A stretch of 24,185 nt of DNA, from positions 1 through 24,185 of the IMG/VR virus record IMGVR_UViG_3300046028_006597, one strand, 5' to 3'. The stretch comes from a virus. This document shows positions 1-24,185 of this stretch, one piece after another; the first letter of the stretch is position 1, and each line of letters opens with the position of its first letter. Under the pieces are notes generated by a model that was not told the DNA's origin, ran no database searches, and saw only the letters and a program-made list of their open reading frames with translations. The translations under genes were made by a program, and so were the position numbers.

Positions 1-2788
1 CTCTAACCATTATTACAATTACTTGTTTATTAGCATCTGTAAATATCGATAACGGATTATATGATAATGGTTGAGTCGATTGCCCCGAACAATTATCACT
101 AGACAAATATGTAAAAGACATATTGTTAAATAAATACCTTTTATTTAAACTTAAATTACTTGCAGATGGACTGCAAGACCCCGAAAAAGTATTATAAGTC
201 ATCGCAGTTATCACTTGGAAATACTCAGAATCCATCGCAAATTTAGCGTATGACGCGTCATCAGTATTTCCTGTTATTTGATATACCGTAGTCTGAACCG
301 GTAATCCTGTTGCCGCACCATAATTTGAATAGTTGATAGTTATAGTACTACCTGGAGCGTCATTAATTGAAGTTCCCGTAATACTTGCGGTCCCAAATTG
401 ATTTAATGAAGTAAACCCTGTCAAATTCTTATCCATTGATAACCCTGGGTCTTGGAATGAAATTAATTGTCCCGCAGGAAAACTAGCTAATTGACTTTCC
501 AGACATGAGATAACCACAACATTATCATAATGATATTTAGTCATAAAGTTATTTGATGGGGTATTAAATGTTACCTTAATTCTATTATAACCACCACCAG
601 GGTTTAAACCTCCAAAATCATCAAAATATTTTGCTTTATTATTAAATAAATTTATTCTTTCAGCTAAAGTAAGACTTGATGTAAACATATGTCTATCACC
701 TCCACCATCAGTTCCATATATCTGTAATTGAGGAACCAAAGATTGTGAAGTAGGACTACTAGTACTAATTGGTAATCCCGACATCATTTCGGTAAATGCT
801 CCAGGATAGGTTAATGTTGATGGTAAAAGACTATTATTATATTTTATTGATTGGGAGTATTGAGATAGAATACCATTAATACCTGATGTTGCAATAATTG
901 AATCAGTGTTAATAGGAACTGGCGAGTCACCAGGAGCATCTCCCTCAACCGTATCACCTTCTTTACAAGCACATAATTCGCAATCAGGATAAGATAAATT
1001 AGGTAATCGTAAGTGAGTAAATAATTTCCATAAATTTAACATTTTATCAATTAATGATTTCATGTCGTCAATAGTCGGACAACTACTAGGTCCTCCCACA
1101 TTAATACCGGGTAATGAGTTTATTGCGTCGGTAATTGCTTTTACAATATTACAAACTATAATAACTATAGTGAAAACAACGGCAACAAGAACCGCTAAAA
1201 TTGGTCCTAAAATAAACTTTAATAAAAAGGCTAAAATATGTGAAACTATTAGTAATAGGATTATTATGGGTTTGAAAACAAACATCATAATAACAAATAA
1301 AAGATATATAATATCAAATCTTAACACCGAATCATTTGTTGGAAACTTAACTGTATCACTTTCACAAGAATCGTCCAATATATTTTTCACAGTTATCATT
1401 CTATTAGGAAGATACCCTTGTCTATACTGGTCAATCATTTGTGACACAGTATACACTTTATTATATAACATTTCATAAAAAGTATCTTCACAATTAATTG
1501 CCGATTGTGGGTCGGCATAATCATTCCAATCTAAACTAAACGCATAAGTTTTAATTGCCGTAGAATAATTAGTAAACGGAGATTTAAGTGGGTCAGTACC
1601 ACCAACTGTCCACCCATATTCTCTAATATTTGGTACTAAAAAATATCCTCGTTTAACCGATTCACTTAATGATGGTGATTGATTCCATTTTATTTTAAAT
1701 CTATATTTTCCTTTTGTTGGTATTCCTTTTTTAGGGTCATTAGATAAGACTCTTTCCCCAAATTCGTTTGTTATAATATAATCCAAGTTCATTGGAACAT
1801 CAACTAACCAAGTTCCATTCTCGTCAATAACTTGACCCCCACCTTCTAACGATACCGTTTCTAATATAGGTTTTCCACTAACATCTTGAGCGATTGTTTG
1901 TCTTATCGCTAAAATTTCACCGGGACCCGCAACTAAATTACATAAACTACCTTGTTTTAATTTTGGTTTACAGTTTCTCTTCTGAAATTGGTCTTCGTTA
2001 GATGAAAAAATTGACCCCATGAATATTGATGTCGGTGTTATAGTAATATTTGATTCATCCGTTAAATCAAAATCTGTTCGTGTTACACCTAAATTACATA
2101 CTTCAGGTTGTCCCCATAATGGTTCGACTTCAATAATACGATTTATAGTAATAATTTGAGGTAATTCATTTAAATTGGTAGAACTCTTAAATTTTGTTCC
2201 AGCAACTTGTGCGGGAGTCGCAATACCCATACGGATTAAATCCTGAGGTGATAAAGAGAATTCCCCAATGTCAGATAAATCAACATCAACATGAATTGTT
2301 TGAGAACCTGTTGGAACTCCAAATATCATATAATCACCACTATCATTAGTTCTTGCGGTATACTTAAAATATTTGTCATAAACCTCAATTAATGTTGGGT
2401 CAACTAAAACATCATTCTTATCAAAAAAAGTTCCTGTTGGCGAGTGATTACTGTAAGATGGTAGGTATGGTAATAAATTATATCTATAACCATCCTCGTT
2501 TAATTCAGATAATGTTTTATAGGGATATAAGTCAGAAATAATAGGATTTGTAGTATCCTCACTTGTCAAAGGAATAAATACTGATATTTTAGCATTAGGT
2601 ATACCAAAACCATCATTCGCAGTTACTCTACCAATGATAACTCCGTAATCGGAACATTGTCTTGTATAAATTTGACTTTGTAATACTTTAAGTGATAAAA
2701 TTTCAAGATATTCAAAATCTTGGTCGATTAAAACCTTAATTGATTTATCTACACCTACTTGAGTTCTTATCCTATATGAATTCGACAT
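1..2788 (-). CDS. Large baseplate-cluster structural protein with a TTR-like N-terminus and a long membrane-like segment (C-terminus beyond window)
   Basis: Read directly from the sequence: an ATG at 2788-2786 opens a frame that runs without a stop to base 1, about 929 codons, so the C-terminus is missing. Residues about 50-170 resemble a carboxypeptidase-regulatory/transthyretin-like beta-sandwich (VIIGRVTANDGFGIPNAKIS near 50-69 and TNDSGDYMIFGVPTGSQTIH near 147-166). Residues about 493-550 are almost entirely hydrophobic, broken only by K/H/P/G, enough for two or three membrane helices. A Cys group follows (C570, C603, C606, C608; the last three form CxxCxC), and then a Ser/Thr/Gly-rich region typical of phage structural proteins. 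The gene follows the gp25 and gp6 homologues with a 73-bp gap, so a role in the baseplate periphery or tail-host contact is likely. No Shine-Dalgarno sequence is visible, only an A-rich leader. The family is not recognised; the function is inferred from position. Confidence 0.85.
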   Translation of the reverse strand, partial: MSNSYRIRTQVGVDKSIKVLIDQDFEYLEILSLKVLQSQIYTRQCSDYGVIIGRVTANDGFGIPNAKISVFIPLTSEDTTNPIISDLYPYKTLSELNEDGYRYNLLPYLPSYSNHSPTGTFFDKNDVLVDPTLIEVYDKYFKYTARTNDSGDYMIFGVPTGSQTIHVDVDLSDIGEFSLSPQDLIRMGIATPAQVAGTKFKSSTNLNELPQIITINRIIEVEPLWGQPEVCNLGVTRTDFDLTDESNITITPTSIFMGSIFSSNEDQFQKRNCKPKLKQGSLCNLVAGPGEILAIRQTIAQDVSGKPILETVSLEGGGQVIDENGTWLVDVPMNLDYIITNEFGERVLSNDPKKGIPTKGKYRFKIKWNQSPSLSESVKRGYFLVPNIREYGWTVGGTDPLKSPFTNYSTAIKTYAFSLDWNDYADPQSAINCEDTFYEMLYNKVYTVSQMIDQYRQGYLPNRMITVKNILDDSCESDTVKFPTNDSVLRFDIIYLLFVIMMFVFKPIIILLLIVSHILAFLLKFILGPILAVLVAVVFTIVIIVCNIVKAITDAINSLPGINVGGPSSCPTIDDMKSLIDKMLNLWKLFTHLRLPNLSYPDCELCACKEGDTVEGDAPGDSPVPINTDSIIATSGINGILSQYSQSIKYNNSLLPSTLTYPGAFTEMMSGLPISTSSPTSQSLVPQLQIYGTDGGGDRHMFTSSLTLAERINLFNNKAKYFDDFGGLNPGGGYNRIKVTFNTPSNNFMTKYHYDNVVVISCLESQLASFPAGQLISFQDPGLSMDKNLTGFTSLNQFGTASITGTSINDAPGSTITINYSNYGAATGLPVQTTVYQITGNTDDASYAKFAMDSEYFQVITAMTYNTFSGSCSPSASNLSLNKRYLFNNMSFTYLSSDNCSGQSTQPLSYNPLSIFTDANKQVIVIMVR

Positions 2789-14567: not shown

Positions 14568-17500
14568 TTAGTTAACTCCGTTAAAGATATTAATCGCCAA
14601 TTGTACTTTAGATTCAATATTTGATTTATCTGTTGGGGACATTTGGTCGTAAACATTAACAGGTGTCAACTTTTTATTTTTATCTGCCGTATTAGCATTT
14701 AAAACCCAAAACTTAGTAATTTCTGTTATACCATCATTAGTTAATGACCCCATTCTCTGTGACCATCTATTAACCATCATAGTTACAACATCAGAAAAAC
14801 TTTCAAAACTGGCATTAGGAACATTTCTACTTGAACAATAATAATAACCGTTAATAAACGTCGCATTCCCCCAATATTGATTTAAAGTAATACCACCATA
14901 ATTATTTTCATATGTTGTTAACCCGACATTATCATTAGATGCTAAATAAACTGTTGAAAAAATAACTTTTTGTAATTTTACATCATTAGTTAAAATCTTA
15001 ATTGTTGCAATAGCGTCCTTATATGTTAAACTATTTTTTCCTGGATACGACAACGGTACCCATTGAGAATATTTAGAATTTGGTTGACAAGATAACTGTA
15101 TAGTATCACTAGCAGTTGAACTATCCTGTTGAGTCGATTGATTATTAATATCAGTAGATTGTCCAATAACATTTGTACTATTAATTTTTGCTGCGTCCTT
15201 TTTCCTAGTTTCAAGTTTAGTTTTATCAATAATTGTTTGTAATAAATTAGTTTTAAGTGATTGTAAATACGCATCAACTTTAGGTAATGATGCAATAGGT
15301 TGTCTAACACCCGTAATATAAGTCTCAAAATTTCCTGGAGTAATAGTATGGTCAACACTTAATATCATATACGGACCACTAAACATTGGTACATGTCTTA
15401 AATTAAAATACATTGTTGGTTGAATCATTGCATTCCCCATCATGGTTATTGAACAACCATAACTTCTGTTTTTATAAAGATTATATAAGGAAGTATTTTG
15501 AGTTGTTCCTTTTCTACCTCCACCTAAATTAGCCATCTGATTTAATACTTCCATCCCTTCCGCAGTTGCTTTACCCGCACTTTGGTCAACAGTAAAACTT
15601 TTAAATATTTGTTGATTCTGTGGACCAATGTCAACATTAAATCCAACAACTTTATTAGACATATCCCAATCTTTTTTACCAACTTGATTTTCAACTAACG
15701 GATTATCACTAGCTCTACGTAAATCAAACGCATCATTTCTATAACGATAATCAACATTATTTTTTAAATCTAATTGTTCGCTTGGCTTACCAGCATAAAA
15801 ACACACTAATTTTGATGACGAATCCCTATAATCAACATTTAAAAATGTTCCAAATAACGTGTTCGCAAATTCGGAAGGACCTTCAATTCTTGGTATTGGA
15901 TTTTTTACCGCATCTTGTACATTATAAAAATTAACATACGAAGGTATATTCATAACCACAAAATGATTTTCAACTAAAATACTTTGAACATATGACAACA
16001 TCGATGCTTTAGTATTTATGTTTTCAGGCTTTAATTCATCTTTTAATTTATAAATGTCGACTAATATTTTATCACCAATATTTCTACTCGCTCTATCTAA
16101 TAATAAAACATCTTCAAACAATGTTTTTGTTTTAAAATCATTACCTGAAATCCACTTATCATTCAACGCTTTAAACGTTTCCCATAATTCAACTTTAGTT
16201 TGATTTCCAGATAAATCCGATTCAACTTGTCCTTCCGCACCAATTGTCGTTGCCGGTAAAGATAATTGTAATTTTGGTATTAAATTATTAATAATTTTTG
16301 ATTGGAAATTATTAATATCCAACAGATAATTGGTCATGGCAGTATAAAACGCCCCTTGACCCGCTTTATCATTTGGATTCGGTACTTGTGGGTACTCATC
16401 TTGTGGAACAAAGACTGTATTAACAATAAATTGTGGTGCGGTAGGTAATGTAGATAAAGAACCAAAAACCGCAATAATAGATTCATTTATTAATGTTTGG
16501 GTATTACCTGTAGTTGTTGGTAAGATACTTGGTAAACTTTCATATAATATAATACCAGCACTATTTGATAAATAAGAAATTTTTTGTGGTCCATATTGTC
16601 TAACCGTTATAGTATCACCACTTAAAAGAGTAGTAAATGAAACAACTTTACTTGGTGAAGATATAGGTGCGTCCGGCGGAGCAATTGGGTTACTTTGGAA
16701 TTGATTTAATTTTTGAGTCGCATATATCTTAATAATCGTCGCAAATAATTTTATATTATTAACAGTAAACGCAATGTTCAAGTCAACAAAGAAATCTGTT
16801 ATATAAGAACCATTATTACCGTAAACTAATTCAGGTATTTCTGAAAACCCAACATAAGTATATAATGTCGACCACTCATTAGGATAATTTATCTTAGATG
16901 TTGTTAATGTTATACCACCACCATTCGTTGGTACCGCATTAGGTGTCATAACAGTATAATATTCCCAAGTATAAGGGTCGGTTAATGGTAATGATGAGAA
17001 TGTGTAGAATAATTTTTTATCATATAAAGATGGATTACCATATTTAAACACAACATCGTAATTTAAAAATTGTCTTAAAATATTTGTAACATTACTTGTT
17101 TGAAAATCTTGTATTTTTGTAATAATATTAGAACCAGTATCCCCCGTTACTGTTGGGACTTTTAATAAACTTCTAAATAACATTTGAAAATTTTTAAAAG
17201 TCTTAGTTGTTTCTGTATCGGAGCCTCCTGAAGAATTAGACATAGAATTTAAAACATCAAGACTACTAACCCCCATTGCACTTGCAATAGCATTTGCTTG
17301 TCCAATATCATTAGTCGAATCATTTGGAGAATAATCATAAATCGATTTTGAAAACTTTAAGAACTCTGTTTCAAACCCATCCAACACATCTTTTTCAAAC
17401 ACTGATAACATTTCACTCATTTGTGAATAATCCACATCAACACCATTTATTGAGAAATTTTCTTGTTGACTTTGTCCTGAAAAAATATGCTTCATATAAG

Positions 17501-20500
17501 CAAATGGTGAAGGCTTTTTAACTTTTGAATTATCATAGTAACCATAGTTTGGTGCTCCCCAAAATAATCTAACGGAACCATCATACATTGCTTGATTTGA
17601 ATTAACCTCAACTTTTAACTTGTCTAATTTAAAACACTCATTTTTTGTTTGATTTAAAAGAGACCCTTGTGATGGCATTAAATAAGTAAACTTTTTATCA
17701 AGGGTATCAACACTAACAGACCAAGGTATTATCCTTAAATCTCTTAAAGGAACTGCTGGGTCAAATCCTTCAGCAAGACTAATAATCGCATCATCAACAT
17801 AATTAATTGAAACTCCCGAAGTTATCCCTGATTGTATTGCACTGTCAGTATATCCTGAGAAAATCTCATATCCTTGACAGAACACGTTAAAATCATTTAT
17901 TAATTTGGGATAAAATCCTGTATTAATTAATGTTGAAACTTCCGCACCAATTGTGGTATCTTTTTGTAATACTATATCAATCGGAGCTCCATTAATAATT
18001 AAACCATAGTTTCGAGTATTCGCACTTGTTATGGGGTCAAAATTAGTGGTATAACTAAACCCTGACCAAGACGTATCTAATATATCAACATTTGTTTCAT
18101 TATATGTTTTATACCTATACCAAATAGAACCAAATTTTAAAATCCAAGCGTAAGGCATTTTATGAACCGCACCAAATTTCTTAAGTGCCGCAAAAATATA
18201 ATCTAAATCTGTTGAGGTATTATTATTATAAGTTTTAAACTTTTCTCTCATTGTTGCCAATGGTAAACTATTAATAAAAAGATACGCTGACGCAACAAAT
18301 GGGTGAGTATCATTATTCCTAAAATTCTTAACCCCTTGTTGAATTGAATTAATAAAATATGGTGTGTTTAGAATTGATGTTGTTTGGTTACTACTAACTT
18401 CACCACTATAATTAAGATATCTAACATTACCTTCAGTCACTAATTGAGACTCAAAAGTTCTATTTTGATACCATGTTTTTAAATCGGTTGAGTTAATAAC
18501 ATTTGGTGTTTGTCCCGATAAATAAACAAAGTTAGTTATTGGTCGAATACTATTTAATGTTGTAGTATTAACAAAATTGGTAATTAATTTAACACTATTA
18601 TCATATTTTAAAACCTTTCTAGTGTCGAAAGAACCATTAGCATCTAAAATAGTACTACCATTTGCCAAATAATTTTTATCCCAAGTTCTATTAGTAAAAG
18701 GAAACGTATCCGCTAAATCAAATTTATTAGACGTTGTAGACTCCAGAATATATTCTGACATAGCAACTTCATTTGGTAAAGAAATCGAAGGTAGTGATTT
18801 AGTACTATTTAAAACATCCACATTAATAAAACTAAACCCACCATTTGTAACCAAATTTTTAATATAGGGTGTGTTATAGATTCCCCTAATATAATTTTGC
18901 CAACTTTCTCCTAATCCACTATTCGAAAACTGTCTTAAAATTGTCGTGAAATTAGTTGCATTAAATCCATATTCTTTTAGTTTTTGAATAATAAAAGGGT
19001 TATCATTTGTTAAACTTTTAACGATATTATTACTTTCCGATTCGGCAATTAAATTACTTATTTTATCAGCATCAGATACAAAACCATTACTTCTTGAAAG
19101 TCTTGAATAATACGAGGTTAACATAATTCTTTCATAAATTTCAAAAAAGAATTTAACCTCTTCTTTATTACCATAAACCCAATTTCCTACAGGAAATTCT
19201 ATCGCATCTAACGAAACTCTTTGTGGTTGTGTTAATTCATTGGTATTTGCCGTAGGGTCTGCAGGTGGTAAAGTTCTTTCCGTAAATCCTTTAATAAATT
19301 CTTCAACAAATTCAACTTCAGGCCAAACATTAAACAAATATCCCTTACTTCTATTAATAATTTTTGGGTCACCAGGATAAGTGATTTCATACTTTTCATG
19401 ACCATCTTCCCCTGAAGTCTCAACAATTAATTGTGGCCATGGATAAACAGGTTCTTTAGAATTATCTCCCGATGAAAGATTATCCGCAGACGCTCCAGCA
19501 ACTTGTTTATCAAATATAACATCTTTTCGATATTTGGTATCTCTCTGTTCCCAAGCTTTAGTATGAACATCATCCATCAACCTTAAAAAAGCTTCACCAT
19601 TAGCAAAAATAACCGCAAGTACATTTCTTATGTTTGGAACAAATCCAATACCACTATCCTTACTCTGTAATAATTTAGATAATGCTGCAGTTAATTCTGT
19701 CTGTATTTGTTGTTCTTTTTCATGTAATTCTTTAGATAATTTATCAATTTTATCAACAAATCGTTTATTACCCTCAAAAACATGGTAAACATAAATTGGT
19801 TGTTTTTTACCATCACGCTCAATAAATTTACCAGAGTTAAATATTTTATTTTTTTCTAACTCCGCCATTAATTCCGTTAATTCAATTGTTGTCGGTTCTT
19901 TATCATTATTTTTTTGTTTAAAAGTCTCAGTTAAATCAACATCATTTGAGGTTATCTCTATTGGGAAATCATTGTAATCAATATTACAAACTATCTGACA
20001 AGGCTTTGTTTTATTATCAATTTTATACGAACCTTTTTCTCCAACAGACGTATTTTTATTTAATTTAATATTATATTCCGAAATAATACTTTTTAATTCC
20101 GAAATTGCGGTATTTTGCTTTGTTAAAGTATTAATTTCAGGTTTAAAACTATAAATCTTAGTATCGCTATTAGATAAATTAATACCACTAGATAAACTTA
20201 TGTTTTTCTTTAAAACAAAATAATTAGTTTTATCCATATATTTGTCAAACCAAGATACCCCCGCAGCATAATAAACATCTTTACCATATGAAATTAATTG
20301 TTTTCTATACACATCAACATCGGTTATAGGGTCTAAATTTTGTTTAGTAAAAGAATCTAAAATATTCTTAACAAAATTTTCAATTCTGTTTTGCATTTGA
20401 ACAAGAGTAAGTTCAGGAAAATCATCAGGAATTAATCCTTTTGTTTTGTATTCACTATACATCTCTTTAACTTTTTGATATCCTCTTTCGTAAATAGTAT

Positions 20501-21320
20501 CATCAACATTTGAAAATTGACTGGAGTTACCACTAGTTGTTTGAATTTTAACTCTCGATTTATACATATGAGGAGCAGCAATTAAATACCCCATTGAAAC
20601 CTCACTTAAAATTGTATACTTATATGTCACAAAAGTTAAATCAATATGAAAATTACCTGAATTACTATTATACCTTGACGTGAAGTTTTTTAACATTATA
20701 GGTAATCGAACCGCCTTACCATAATAACCTTTTATAGTTAAATAAAATAAAGGGTATGGCAGATTAAAAAATGCCGCATATGGTGAGTTATCCCCGCCTT
20801 CAAATAAAGCCCTACCTTTAATATCCTCCATAGATATATTAATGGTTGACATAAACGAGGTATTTTGTTTAACACTAATACTTGTAATACCTAATAATCC
20901 ATTATCAGTAGAACCTGGTTTACCCCCTGAGTTAATTGTTTGTCTAATATAATAATCATTATCATTTTTTGGATTACGTATCGATTCTTGTTTTGGTTGA
21001 TTCACCCCTTTTCCTTGAATTGAATCTTTACCCGTAAATTCATCAGTATATTCATTATCTAAAAAGGTCTTCCCACCTGGCTTTAAAAAGTTCATAGACG
21101 CAACTGAAATAGTTTGAATCGCATCATTACTCGCAGTACCGACAGATAATTTAGTTCTTGGAATAACCTTACATTCCAAATTGGCATACATAACTAAATC
21201 TTCTTGTCTTACGTGCCTATCTGACGCAACCCCGTGTTCGTCAACAAGTTTGTTTGGGTCAATTATTGTAATGTTGTTGTAGTCGAGTTCGACCAATATA
21301 TTTTCTGGTTTATCTACCAT
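14568..21320 (-). CDS. Giant baseplate hub-like structural protein (2250 aa) with a cell-wall-hydrolase-like C-terminus
   Basis: A single uninterrupted 2250-residue frame. Residues about 144-255 (SISVKQNTSFMSTINISMED; PYPLFYLTIKGYYGKAVRLP) resemble the first beta-domain of tail-hub proteins. Residues about 1950-2035 (GCSITMMGNAMIQPTMYFNL; then HVPMFSGPYMILSVDHTITP and NFETYITGVRQP) resemble the second hub domain of the gp27/gpD/VgrG-type fold. The roughly 1700 residues between are Asn/Thr/Ser-rich with no domain I can name, apart from a charged helical stretch near 500-560. After a Gln/Ser-rich linker, residues about 2105-2250 look like a lysozyme/glucosaminidase-type domain (TTYENNYGGITLNQYW, then a VTMMVNRWSQRM helix). 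T4 gp27 has 391 residues and gp5 575. The gene overlaps the gp53-like gene by 11 bp and has no Shine-Dalgarno sequence, so coupled translation is likely. The hub role is inferred from domain resemblance and from neighbours. Confidence 0.82.
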   Translation of the reverse strand: MVDKPENILVELDYNNITIIDPNKLVDEHGVASDRHVRQEDLVMYANLECKVIPRTKLSVGTASNDAIQTISVASMNFLKPGGKTFLDNEYTDEFTGKDSIQGKGVNQPKQESIRNPKNDNDYYIRQTINSGGKPGSTDNGLLGITSISVKQNTSFMSTINISMEDIKGRALFEGGDNSPYAAFFNLPYPLFYLTIKGYYGKAVRLPIMLKNFTSRYNSNSGNFHIDLTFVTYKYTILSEVSMGYLIAAPHMYKSRVKIQTTSGNSSQFSNVDDTIYERGYQKVKEMYSEYKTKGLIPDDFPELTLVQMQNRIENFVKNILDSFTKQNLDPITDVDVYRKQLISYGKDVYYAAGVSWFDKYMDKTNYFVLKKNISLSSGINLSNSDTKIYSFKPEINTLTKQNTAISELKSIISEYNIKLNKNTSVGEKGSYKIDNKTKPCQIVCNIDYNDFPIEITSNDVDLTETFKQKNNDKEPTTIELTELMAELEKNKIFNSGKFIERDGKKQPIYVYHVFEGNKRFVDKIDKLSKELHEKEQQIQTELTAALSKLLQSKDSGIGFVPNIRNVLAVIFANGEAFLRLMDDVHTKAWEQRDTKYRKDVIFDKQVAGASADNLSSGDNSKEPVYPWPQLIVETSGEDGHEKYEITYPGDPKIINRSKGYLFNVWPEVEFVEEFIKGFTERTLPPADPTANTNELTQPQRVSLDAIEFPVGNWVYGNKEEVKFFFEIYERIMLTSYYSRLSRSNGFVSDADKISNLIAESESNNIVKSLTNDNPFIIQKLKEYGFNATNFTTILRQFSNSGLGESWQNYIRGIYNTPYIKNLVTNGGFSFINVDVLNSTKSLPSISLPNEVAMSEYILESTTSNKFDLADTFPFTNRTWDKNYLANGSTILDANGSFDTRKVLKYDNSVKLITNFVNTTTLNSIRPITNFVYLSGQTPNVINSTDLKTWYQNRTFESQLVTEGNVRYLNYSGEVSSNQTTSILNTPYFINSIQQGVKNFRNNDTHPFVASAYLFINSLPLATMREKFKTYNNNTSTDLDYIFAALKKFGAVHKMPYAWILKFGSIWYRYKTYNETNVDILDTSWSGFSYTTNFDPITSANTRNYGLIINGAPIDIVLQKDTTIGAEVSTLINTGFYPKLINDFNVFCQGYEIFSGYTDSAIQSGITSGVSINYVDDAIISLAEGFDPAVPLRDLRIIPWSVSVDTLDKKFTYLMPSQGSLLNQTKNECFKLDKLKVEVNSNQAMYDGSVRLFWGAPNYGYYDNSKVKKPSPFAYMKHIFSGQSQQENFSINGVDVDYSQMSEMLSVFEKDVLDGFETEFLKFSKSIYDYSPNDSTNDIGQANAIASAMGVSSLDVLNSMSNSSGGSDTETTKTFKNFQMLFRSLLKVPTVTGDTGSNIITKIQDFQTSNVTNILRQFLNYDVVFKYGNPSLYDKKLFYTFSSLPLTDPYTWEYYTVMTPNAVPTNGGGITLTTSKINYPNEWSTLYTYVGFSEIPELVYGNNGSYITDFFVDLNIAFTVNNIKLFATIIKIYATQKLNQFQSNPIAPPDAPISSPSKVVSFTTLLSGDTITVRQYGPQKISYLSNSAGIILYESLPSILPTTTGNTQTLINESIIAVFGSLSTLPTAPQFIVNTVFVPQDEYPQVPNPNDKAGQGAFYTAMTNYLLDINNFQSKIINNLIPKLQLSLPATTIGAEGQVESDLSGNQTKVELWETFKALNDKWISGNDFKTKTLFEDVLLLDRASRNIGDKILVDIYKLKDELKPENINTKASMLSYVQSILVENHFVVMNIPSYVNFYNVQDAVKNPIPRIEGPSEFANTLFGTFLNVDYRDSSSKLVCFYAGKPSEQLDLKNNVDYRYRNDAFDLRRASDNPLVENQVGKKDWDMSNKVVGFNVDIGPQNQQIFKSFTVDQSAGKATAEGMEVLNQMANLGGGRKGTTQNTSLYNLYKNRSYGCSITMMGNAMIQPTMYFNLRHVPMFSGPYMILSVDHTITPGNFETYITGVRQPIASLPKVDAYLQSLKTNLLQTIIDKTKLETRKKDAAKINSTNVIGQSTDINNQSTQQDSSTASDTIQLSCQPNSKYSQWVPLSYPGKNSLTYKDAIATIKILTNDVKLQKVIFSTVYLASNDNVGLTTYENNYGGITLNQYWGNATFINGYYYCSSRNVPNASFESFSDVVTMMVNRWSQRMGSLTNDGITEITKFWVLNANTADKNKKLTPVNVYDQMSPTDKSNIESKVQLAINIFNGVN

Positions 21321-21635: not shown

Positions 21636-24185
21636 TTAATCAAATTTAATTTTTCCGTTAAAAGTATTTTTTTCCAAAGGAGGAACATTAACTGTTTTAT
21701 AAAGATTTGAAATGTCAATTTTTTGAGTCGGTTCTGTTGCTGAGTTAGCAACTGTAGTATATTCAAATTTCCTTGTCTTACCTTTAGGATACATTTTATT
21801 CTCAATACCATCAGTAAATGATTTATATTCTGAACCGGATTTAAATTTAACAAATTTATTTTCTTCTTCTTTTATTTCCTTAGAATATCGTTTAGCAATA
21901 TTATCAGTAATATCATTAAATTTTTTCTTCAAATTAATAGGGTCGTTAATACTTAATAAATCACCTTTTATCACAAATTTCTTAAATTCTTCAATTTTAT
22001 TTAAATTATTAAAAAGTCTAGAAATAACCAAGTAAAATCTTTTATCCTCATAAGTAGTGAATAAAGATTCATTAACAGGTGTAAAATCTCCACCATCATA
22101 TAACGAAATATCACTAACAATATCATTTTTATTTAATAACTCACTATACTCATTTAATGTTAATGATAATGAAATATAATCAAGTCTAAATTCATCATAA
22201 GTATCATTAGGTATTATACCACCAGCCTTACTTGAGTTACTAATTTGGTCAGTTCCCTTAATATTATATATTCTCGGAGTTCCGGTGTCTAAAATTTTAC
22301 CGTCTGTTTTACTATTAACTAAATTTAATTTTCTAATAGTTTGAACATAATTTTGTTGTTGTATAGTTAATTCTTGAGTAATTGTAGTTATTTCAGAGGC
22401 AAATGTCGCCGATAAAGTTGTAATATAGTCTACCATATTTTTTCTAACCCCTCTAATTGCCGGACTATTAGCATCAAATTTCTTTAAAAGTTCATCTATA
22501 ATTGGGTTGCCAACATCGTTAATATCATCTACAACCATTTTAAATAAATCACCAAGTCTTTTTTCAATACTTTCAGGTTTACCATAAATCTTAACATCTG
22601 ATGGTGTTGTTCCCGCAGAAACAGTTCCACCACTATATAAACGAGAATCATTAACTAATTGTTCAATACCATAGTTAGTATTTAATGTTAATTTTTGCAT
22701 TTGATTTGTTACCGCCTCAAAATATGTTTTAGTTTCAGTTAATAAACTATCCATAATTTTTTGATATGATATTTCACCTGTTTGTCCACTAGGAACAGGA
22801 ATATTAGTAATAATTTCACCAATTGTTGTTCCCCCATTATTTGTTGGAGGATTGTCAACATTTGCAACTGTAGCAAGTGTCTGTGACGCTAAAATTGAAT
22901 CAACAACACTTTTGTCCAATGCGGAAGTGTCTTCGGTCCAAACTGACCTCTCATCATAAATTTCTGTGTTTGCATAGTAATTGAAAGAGAGAGCGTTCTG
23001 TAGTTGTTCCACAGGTTTAGCAAGTCCCATACCACCAATAATATTAAAATTCAAATTAACACTGGCAATCATCGGTTGGATACCGATACCTTCAGGATTC
23101 ATATCCAATATTAACGGGTCATACGTAAATGATAATGATGTTGGAATAATTTTACTATTAACAAAATCACCTAATCTTAATATTAAGACCGGTGGAGCCC
23201 CAAATGAAGTGTTAACTGCGTCGTTATATTTTGGTTTACCGTCAGTACCAATTGTTGGTATGGTTTCTCCAGGTCTAACACATTGATTTAAGAACGTTAA
23301 ACGAGCGTTTAACCCTTCCGGAGTAGTCGAGTGGAATGCTGGGTTAAAGTACTTAATCTTTTCTTTAAATGAATCATATACCATTGGTGACTCTTGTTTA
23401 ATAACTTCGAAATAATCACACTCAGATAAAAGACCTCTTAATATTTTTTTAGTAATCCCTTCTTTAATTTTTTTAATAGTATCAACTGTTGGGACAGGTT
23501 TTGGAACATCCACATTAACCGTTTTAACTTCTTTAATAGTTTTAATCGGGTCTATCGGTACAACAGGTTTAGGTGGTATCACCACATTAATTGTTTTAAC
23601 CCTAACTCGTCTACACGCCATCGCACTCACTGAAAATGTTTGAGAGTTCACGGTTACATTACCATTTTTATCTTTTTGGTTAACTTTACAGTCAACATCA
23701 AATCCTGGTGTAGTATTTGAAGTCGTCGATTGTGTATCCCCCGACGCTTTTTCAGTATATGCTTTAGGAATTACTGTCTCTTCACCTGCACCAGGTTCTG
23801 TTGTTATACTAAATTTACCATTAGTTATAAACGGTCCTAATGAAGCGTCCCCATCTTTATATTCTTTGAAAAAATTTAAAATCGAATCAATTCTTCGAGT
23901 AGATAATGATTTATTATATGCAACTGAGGCACTGGCTGATGCCGAACCTTCCATCACAACAGTAATTTTGGCTTCAGGATTATTTGTTAATAAATTAAAT
24001 GCGTCTTTAACAAACCCTTTACTAAAAGTCGTGAAATTCGACTCAACAACCGTCTTAAAAAATTCTAATACATTTTTTTCTCTACTATCAGAATTAAACG
24101 TTGATTTAGCAATACTTTCATATTTTGTTTTATTACCCCCATCAATATATACATTATATAAACCTTGATAACTACCTATCGTTGT
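21636..24185 (-). CDS. Baseplate/tail structural protein with an OmpA-like domain (N-terminus beyond window)
   Basis: The frame is open from the right edge of the window, so the true start lies beyond 24185; 849 residues are visible. A GTG at 23957 is internal and not the start, because it falls inside a domain. Visible residues about 55-130 match the OmpA C-terminal peptidoglycan-binding fold: a helix (GFVKDAFNLLTNNPEAKITV), the strand VVMEGSASAS, and the signature NKSLSTRRIDSILNFF. A Pro/Val/Lys linker follows (VVIPPKPVVPIDPIKTIKEV). Next comes a beta-rich part with PTSLSFTYDPLILDMNPEGI and ASVNLNFNIIGGMGLAKPVE, reminiscent of tail-tube-initiator or baseplate-hub proteins, and then a helical C-terminal half. 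It abuts the gp53-like gene by 2 bp. The likely role is in the baseplate or tube base, with the OmpA domain perhaps touching the peptidoglycan layer; the location is inferred from neighbours. Confidence 0.85.
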   Translation of the reverse strand, partial: TTIGSYQGLYNVYIDGGNKTKYESIAKSTFNSDSREKNVLEFFKTVVESNFTTFSKGFVKDAFNLLTNNPEAKITVVMEGSASASASVAYNKSLSTRRIDSILNFFKEYKDGDASLGPFITNGKFSITTEPGAGEETVIPKAYTEKASGDTQSTTSNTTPGFDVDCKVNQKDKNGNVTVNSQTFSVSAMACRRVRVKTINVVIPPKPVVPIDPIKTIKEVKTVNVDVPKPVPTVDTIKKIKEGITKKILRGLLSECDYFEVIKQESPMVYDSFKEKIKYFNPAFHSTTPEGLNARLTFLNQCVRPGETIPTIGTDGKPKYNDAVNTSFGAPPVLILRLGDFVNSKIIPTSLSFTYDPLILDMNPEGIGIQPMIASVNLNFNIIGGMGLAKPVEQLQNALSFNYYANTEIYDERSVWTEDTSALDKSVVDSILASQTLATVANVDNPPTNNGGTTIGEIITNIPVPSGQTGEISYQKIMDSLLTETKTYFEAVTNQMQKLTLNTNYGIEQLVNDSRLYSGGTVSAGTTPSDVKIYGKPESIEKRLGDLFKMVVDDINDVGNPIIDELLKKFDANSPAIRGVRKNMVDYITTLSATFASEITTITQELTIQQQNYVQTIRKLNLVNSKTDGKILDTGTPRIYNIKGTDQISNSSKAGGIIPNDTYDEFRLDYISLSLTLNEYSELLNKNDIVSDISLYDGGDFTPVNESLFTTYEDKRFYLVISRLFNNLNKIEEFKKFVIKGDLLSINDPINLKKKFNDITDNIAKRYSKEIKEEENKFVKFKSGSEYKSFTDGIENKMYPKGKTRKFEYTTVANSATEPTQKIDISNLYKTVNVPPLEKNTFNGKIKFD

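Follow-up and report, generated by a model that had tools for sequence, protein, structure and literature searches.

A protein of 2250 residues, encoded on the minus strand of the window (the whole 24,185-base stretch that was analysed, IMG/VR record IMGVR_UViG_3300046028_006597), is a baseplate hub, identified as such by its gene order, a protein-family match and its predicted fold. With a probability of roughly 0.8, we propose that it is the trimeric hub of a contractile-tailed phage, standing in the position of T4 gp27, with two tube-type domains per chain, an oversized structural insertion between them and an exchangeable distal module (Table 1). Such a hub would be nearly six times as long as T4 gp27 and about three times as long as its syntenic counterparts in Microcystis phage Mel-JY01 and in LR756508, and it offers a defined target for structure work.

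Table 1. Features of the hub gene and its upstream neighbours, in window coordinates.
Feature	Position	Strand	Evidence
Baseplate hub protein, 2250 aa, one ORF	14568..21320	minus	ORF list; full-length relatives
Conserved N-terminal leader, residues 1-107, mostly strands, low-confidence model	21000..21320	minus	majority identity 0.72 over 103 sequences; DSSP, pLDDT
Tube-type barrel, proposed hub domain I, residues 108-278	20487..20999	minus	DSSP strand order; PDB fold matches
Very large insertion, residues 279-1889, mostly helical	15654..20486	minus	no family match; BFVD fold matches; G198-H1991 spacing
Hypervariable, often absent segment of the insertion, residues 1541-1690	16251..16700	minus	majority identity 0.21; DSSP
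C-terminal hub domain (domain IV), residues 1890-2010	15291..15653	minus	PDB fold matches, ranks 1-19; phrog_52 and phrog_196
phrog_52-matching stretch, residues 1956-2004	15309..15455	minus	phrog_52 positions 460-511, E = 1.1e-4
Exchangeable C-terminal domain, residues 2076-2250, C2078 and C2162 nearly invariant	14571..15095	minus	model, alignment, no family match
LysM/gp53-like baseplate protein, 107 aa	21310..21633	minus	phrog_7145 baseplate wedge subunit, E = 1.6e-6
Tube-initiator-like protein, C-terminal 849 aa	21636..24185	minus	position matches immuto gp035; putative function

The hub ORF starts at an ATG and contains no internal stop. We confirmed relatives of its product in at least 559 IMG/VR stretches, that is, in hundreds, some of them on contigs longer than 300 kb. 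Each of the 184 full-length relatives among the matches listed (1976-2579 aa) is encoded by one uninterrupted ORF, so the 2250-residue ORF, present and intact as first described, is not a fusion artefact. Sequence searches with the whole protein gave no match in Pfam, PHROGs, the PDB or 50,697 phage records, and no relatives were found in the bacterial genomes searched.

The tape measure is followed by the tube-initiator and LysM/gp53-like genes, and the hub gene stands next to these, as expected of a hub. The LysM gene, whose label was read from the sequence rather than from a Pfam match, lies directly upstream of the hub gene in 176 of 177 relatives. The relative L010, in which the full tube-initiator-like protein is 1672 aa long, has the order gp26/gp51-like (phrog_150, E = 2.2e-15), tape-measure-like (weak match, E = 0.0057), initiator-like, LysM/gp53-like and hub. 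The UvsX of the window is closest to that of Flavobacterium phage immuto (39% identity), in which sheath, tube, hub subunit and tape measure are followed by gp035 (716 aa), gp034 (101 aa) and gp033 (938 aa) and, across the record ends, by DNA polymerase, ssDNA-binding protein and recombinase. The order of initiator, LysM protein and hub is common to immuto, Mel-JY01 and LR756508, and in phage A-1(L) the hub gp15, the LysM protein gp16 and the initiator gp18 are near one another in gene numbering (PMC10966104). Also in the window are gp25-like and gp6-like wedge proteins, together with a putative ribonucleotide reductase, helicase and ssDNA-binding protein, named from our reading of the sequence and from the gene order shared with immuto. 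The open-ended 929-aa ORF that follows gp6 has a run of about 70 strongly hydrophobic residues (486-556; window 1121-1333, minus strand), unusual for a baseplate region, and a weak CarboxypepD_reg match. The initiator-like protein has a weak inner match to the OmpA family in the window (23862-24041, minus strand, E = 0.0045) and in L010 (4667-9685, E = 0.0027), both below the cut-off; the stretch is possibly a peptidoglycan-binding insert.

Residues 1890-2010 are a hub domain, the C-terminal tube-type domain of the gp27/gpD/VgrG-type family, and the assignment is strongly supported by two PHROG families and by fold. A PHROG scan of residues 1820-2035 matched phrog_52 ("tail protein") in 52 of 59 relatives (best E = 1.4e-7; window, 1.1e-4) and phrog_196 ("baseplate hub") in 17 of the 59 (best E = 5.1e-6). 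As a control, residues 309-353 of T4 gp27 match phrog_52 positions 461-506, weakly (E = 0.072). The protein was modelled with AlphaFold2 in two overlapping pieces, residues 1-1160 and 1150-2250, the second from 103 sequences with a mean pLDDT of 74.9. In the PDB fold search with this C-terminal half, ranks 1-19 are all phage hub, tail-tip, baseplate, VgrG and contractile injection-system chains (E = 0.017-0.49). Neither half gave a Foldseek E-value below 0.001 against the PDB, and overall superpositions were poor because the query is large. Profile comparisons with the syntenic hubs of LR756508 (P = 2.1e-4 to 5.2e-4) and Mel-JY01 (P = 2.2e-3 to 6.7e-3) also align at the C-terminus; that with the immuto hub is weaker (P = 0.0077). 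A hub-like part had been predicted at residues 1950-2035, and the predicted strands and the PHROG match to residues 1956-2004 bear this out, with the domain at about 1890-2010.

At the other end, residues 108-278 would form hub domain I. The model of residues 1-1160 (mean pLDDT 76.8, less confident over the first 130 residues) shows a predicted strand-strand-helix-strand-strand-strand order by DSSP, from which the domain boundaries were taken; Foldseek output carries no residue ranges. Tail tubes, tube initiators, tail terminators, hubs and VgrG-type proteins make up most of the PDB matches of this half (E-values from 0.0096 up), and we assign these matches to residues 1-278 because most strands of the half lie there. 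None of the sequence methods applied to this domain confirmed a hub relationship, and in a direct profile comparison with T4 gp27 its score was the best among 16 candidates at P = 0.012, which is not convincing. A GITSI... motif followed by a strand ending in G-aromatic was seen by eye also in the immuto and LR756508 hubs and is a lead only. The hub-like N-terminal part originally predicted at residues 144-255 is thus supported by fold, at about 108-278, but not by sequence methods. The many tube initiators and tail tubes among these matches would also suit a baseplate protein of tube fold other than the hub, such as a second tube initiator or one that attaches fibres. We consider this very improbable, because the fold matches of the C-terminal half and phrog_196 name hubs, and the gene lies directly after the LysM gene while the initiator-like gene is separate.

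Between the two hub-like ends lies an insertion of about 1,600 residues, as had been predicted, which is large, conserved in size and fixed in the relatives. In 103 diverse relatives, 1632-1877 residues separate G198 from H1991 or their equivalents, as compared to 516 in the immuto hub, 560 in LR756508 and 499 in Mel-JY01; in these three hubs we placed the equivalent points by eye, guided by the G-aromatic and H motifs. The region should also contain hub domains II and III. The insertion matched nothing in Pfam, PHROG or the PDB by sequence. Its middle had been described as rich in Asn and Thr, which is not specific to it: N+T makes up 16.8% of residues 280-1890 as against 17.2% of the whole protein, 16.0% of gp6 and 17.7% of the adjoining 849-aa protein.

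Over the 103 sequences, the two tube-type domains have majority identities of 0.63 and 0.73; residues 1691-1889 reach 0.69, and most of the insertion lies at 0.50-0.67. Conservation in most of the insertion thus comes close to that of the hub domains, and this speaks for a structural role. Three segments vary strongly (about 376-525, 1351-1425 and 1541-1690), the last of them with a small unit of four predicted strands (about 1558-1594), and such variation might mark a receptor-binding or host-range module. The insertion mostly stays at 0.5-0.7 majority identity, however, and the clear exchange lies in the C-terminal 225 residues, so that we regard this possibility, including the receptor-facing module of the original prediction, as improbable.

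In BFVD, the N-terminal half resembles in fold two models that differ from it in sequence: A0A6J5L837, over 1115 columns and nearly the whole length (E = 2e-76, 33% identity), and A0A8S5LAH1 ("Lysozyme", Myoviridae sp. ctPuP5), over 905 columns (E = 2e-19, 17% identity). Neither name was found in the literature searched. These matches indicate that part of the insertion is older than the lineage. Tentatively, and with some doubt, the insertion may represent a mostly helical architecture that is new, has become fixed in a large lineage of uncultured phages and is partly common to ctPuP5-like myoviruses; it would add a further ring or dome round the hub and alter the coupling of spike release and sheath contraction.

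The insertion had also been proposed to form an additional spike, but related genomes hold a separate gpV/gp5-like candidate. PF04717 matches below the cut-off were found in 4 of 7 related genomes, all in frames of 516-610 aa, with weak E-values from 0.12 for a 523-aa protein down to 0.0012 in another genome. The 523-aa frame (L255:1462-3033) belongs to a relative of 322 kb (G001), where the hub gene is about 86 kb away, and the N-terminus of the frame looks gpV-like by eye. The whole 523-aa protein had no match in Pfam, and searches of the seven related genomes with the immuto spike (gp116) and with the Gp5_OB and PAAR families found nothing. If the candidate is right, the phage would have an ordinary hub-spike pair, and an extra spike in the hub would not be needed; a ring or collar is possible.

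The same candidate bears on whether the insertion is a plug that closes the tail tube and opens on infection. In T5 and GTA the tube is closed by a large insertion in hdII of the hub (PMC10038345), and the insertion described here is situated between the same pair of tube-type domains. Contractile phages, however, close their tube with an OB-fold domain and a spike (PMC10038345), for which the related genomes encode a candidate, and an insertion about three times as long as the barrel-to-barrel stretch of the syntenic hubs is beyond the need of a plug. We therefore give a plug like that of T5 pb3 little credence.

The most exchangeable part of the hub is the C-terminal module (about 2026-2250), which has been swapped between lineages. 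Compared in 75-residue steps, the window protein and that of the relative L018 are 75-95% identical up to residue 2025 (83-92% in 1726-2025) and 32-43% identical thereafter; identity to the relative L086 is 72-84% in 1726-2025 and 56-63% after. That the nearer relative, L018, diverges at the end of the hub domain indicates module exchange. Along the DNA (14571-15243, minus strand), the relationship shifts sharply at residue ~2026, from L018-like before to closer to L086 after. The clean exchange of this module suggests where the hub adapts to hosts.

The C-terminal domain is confidently modelled by AlphaFold2, and Pfam searches with it from 72 relatives gave no family match. A glucosaminidase-like pattern (NNxxGI) in the domain was dismissed, as these searches did not match it. 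We also considered that the insertion or the C-terminal module bears wall-degrading enzymes. There are precedents in gp15 of the Anabaena myophage A-1(L), a hub with lysozyme, endoglucanase and peptidase domains (PMC10966104), and in the immuto hub, which ends in VanY, and one of the BFVD matches is named "Lysozyme". In none of the relatives scanned, however, did the sequence searches find a hydrolase domain or other enzyme family in the insertion or the C-terminal domain, and the Glu present in the C-terminal domain of some relatives is mostly not conserved, which makes an enzyme carrier unlikely.

In the structural reading that we prefer, the two tube-type domains of each chain (about 108-278 and 1890-2010), six per trimer, would form a ring that prolongs the tail tube, sitting below the tube initiator and beside the gp53-like LysM protein; both trimer and ring we infer. 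The ~1,600 residues between the domains would take the place of T4's short hub domains II and III. Most likely they would build a large structural collar or dome, either round the hub or beneath it, that grips both the wedges and the separate gpV/gp5-like spike. Judged from conservation alone, we put this collar role at about even odds. The C-terminal 175-225 residues would be the exchangeable distal module, probably touching the host envelope.

Like T4 gp27, the window protein would have two tube-type domains per chain, and gp27 residues 309-353 and window residues 1956-2004 fall on the same phrog_52 positions; unlike it, it has 2250 residues rather than 391, and no direct significant alignment joins the two. 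The immuto protein gp033 (YP_010114650.1; L235:21555-24371) is annotated as a carboxypeptidase. From gene order and motifs it is probably a hub with a C-terminal VanY domain. It shares with the window hub the place after initiator and LysM genes, N- and C-terminal motifs that are similar by eye and an extra C-terminal module, but that module is VanY, the spacing is far shorter and the profile match is weak. The Mel-JY01 protein WWT39331.1 (671 aa) and the 721-aa ORF of LR756508 likewise follow the LysM gene and match at the C-terminal profile, but have the shorter spacing and lack the C-terminal module; no relatives of these two hubs were found in IMG/VR. Our assignment provides a better name for the Mel-JY01 and immuto proteins that at present go under "hypothetical" or "carboxypeptidase".

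Hub insertions are already known, and none near this size was found in the literature searched. A-1(L) gp15 is also a contractile-phage hub that has extra domains and contacts a LysM protein (PMC10966104), but there the fold identifies the extra domains as enzymes, whereas none is recognised in the window hub. T5 pb3 also has a large insertion between the two tube domains of a hub, but in a non-contractile phage (PMC10038345), and an insertion has been described in the hub of lambda, gpJ (PMC10721106). The baseplate centre is thus unusual in size, as predicted, but not in kind, since T5 pb3, lambda gpJ and A-1(L) gp15 carry insertions of their own.
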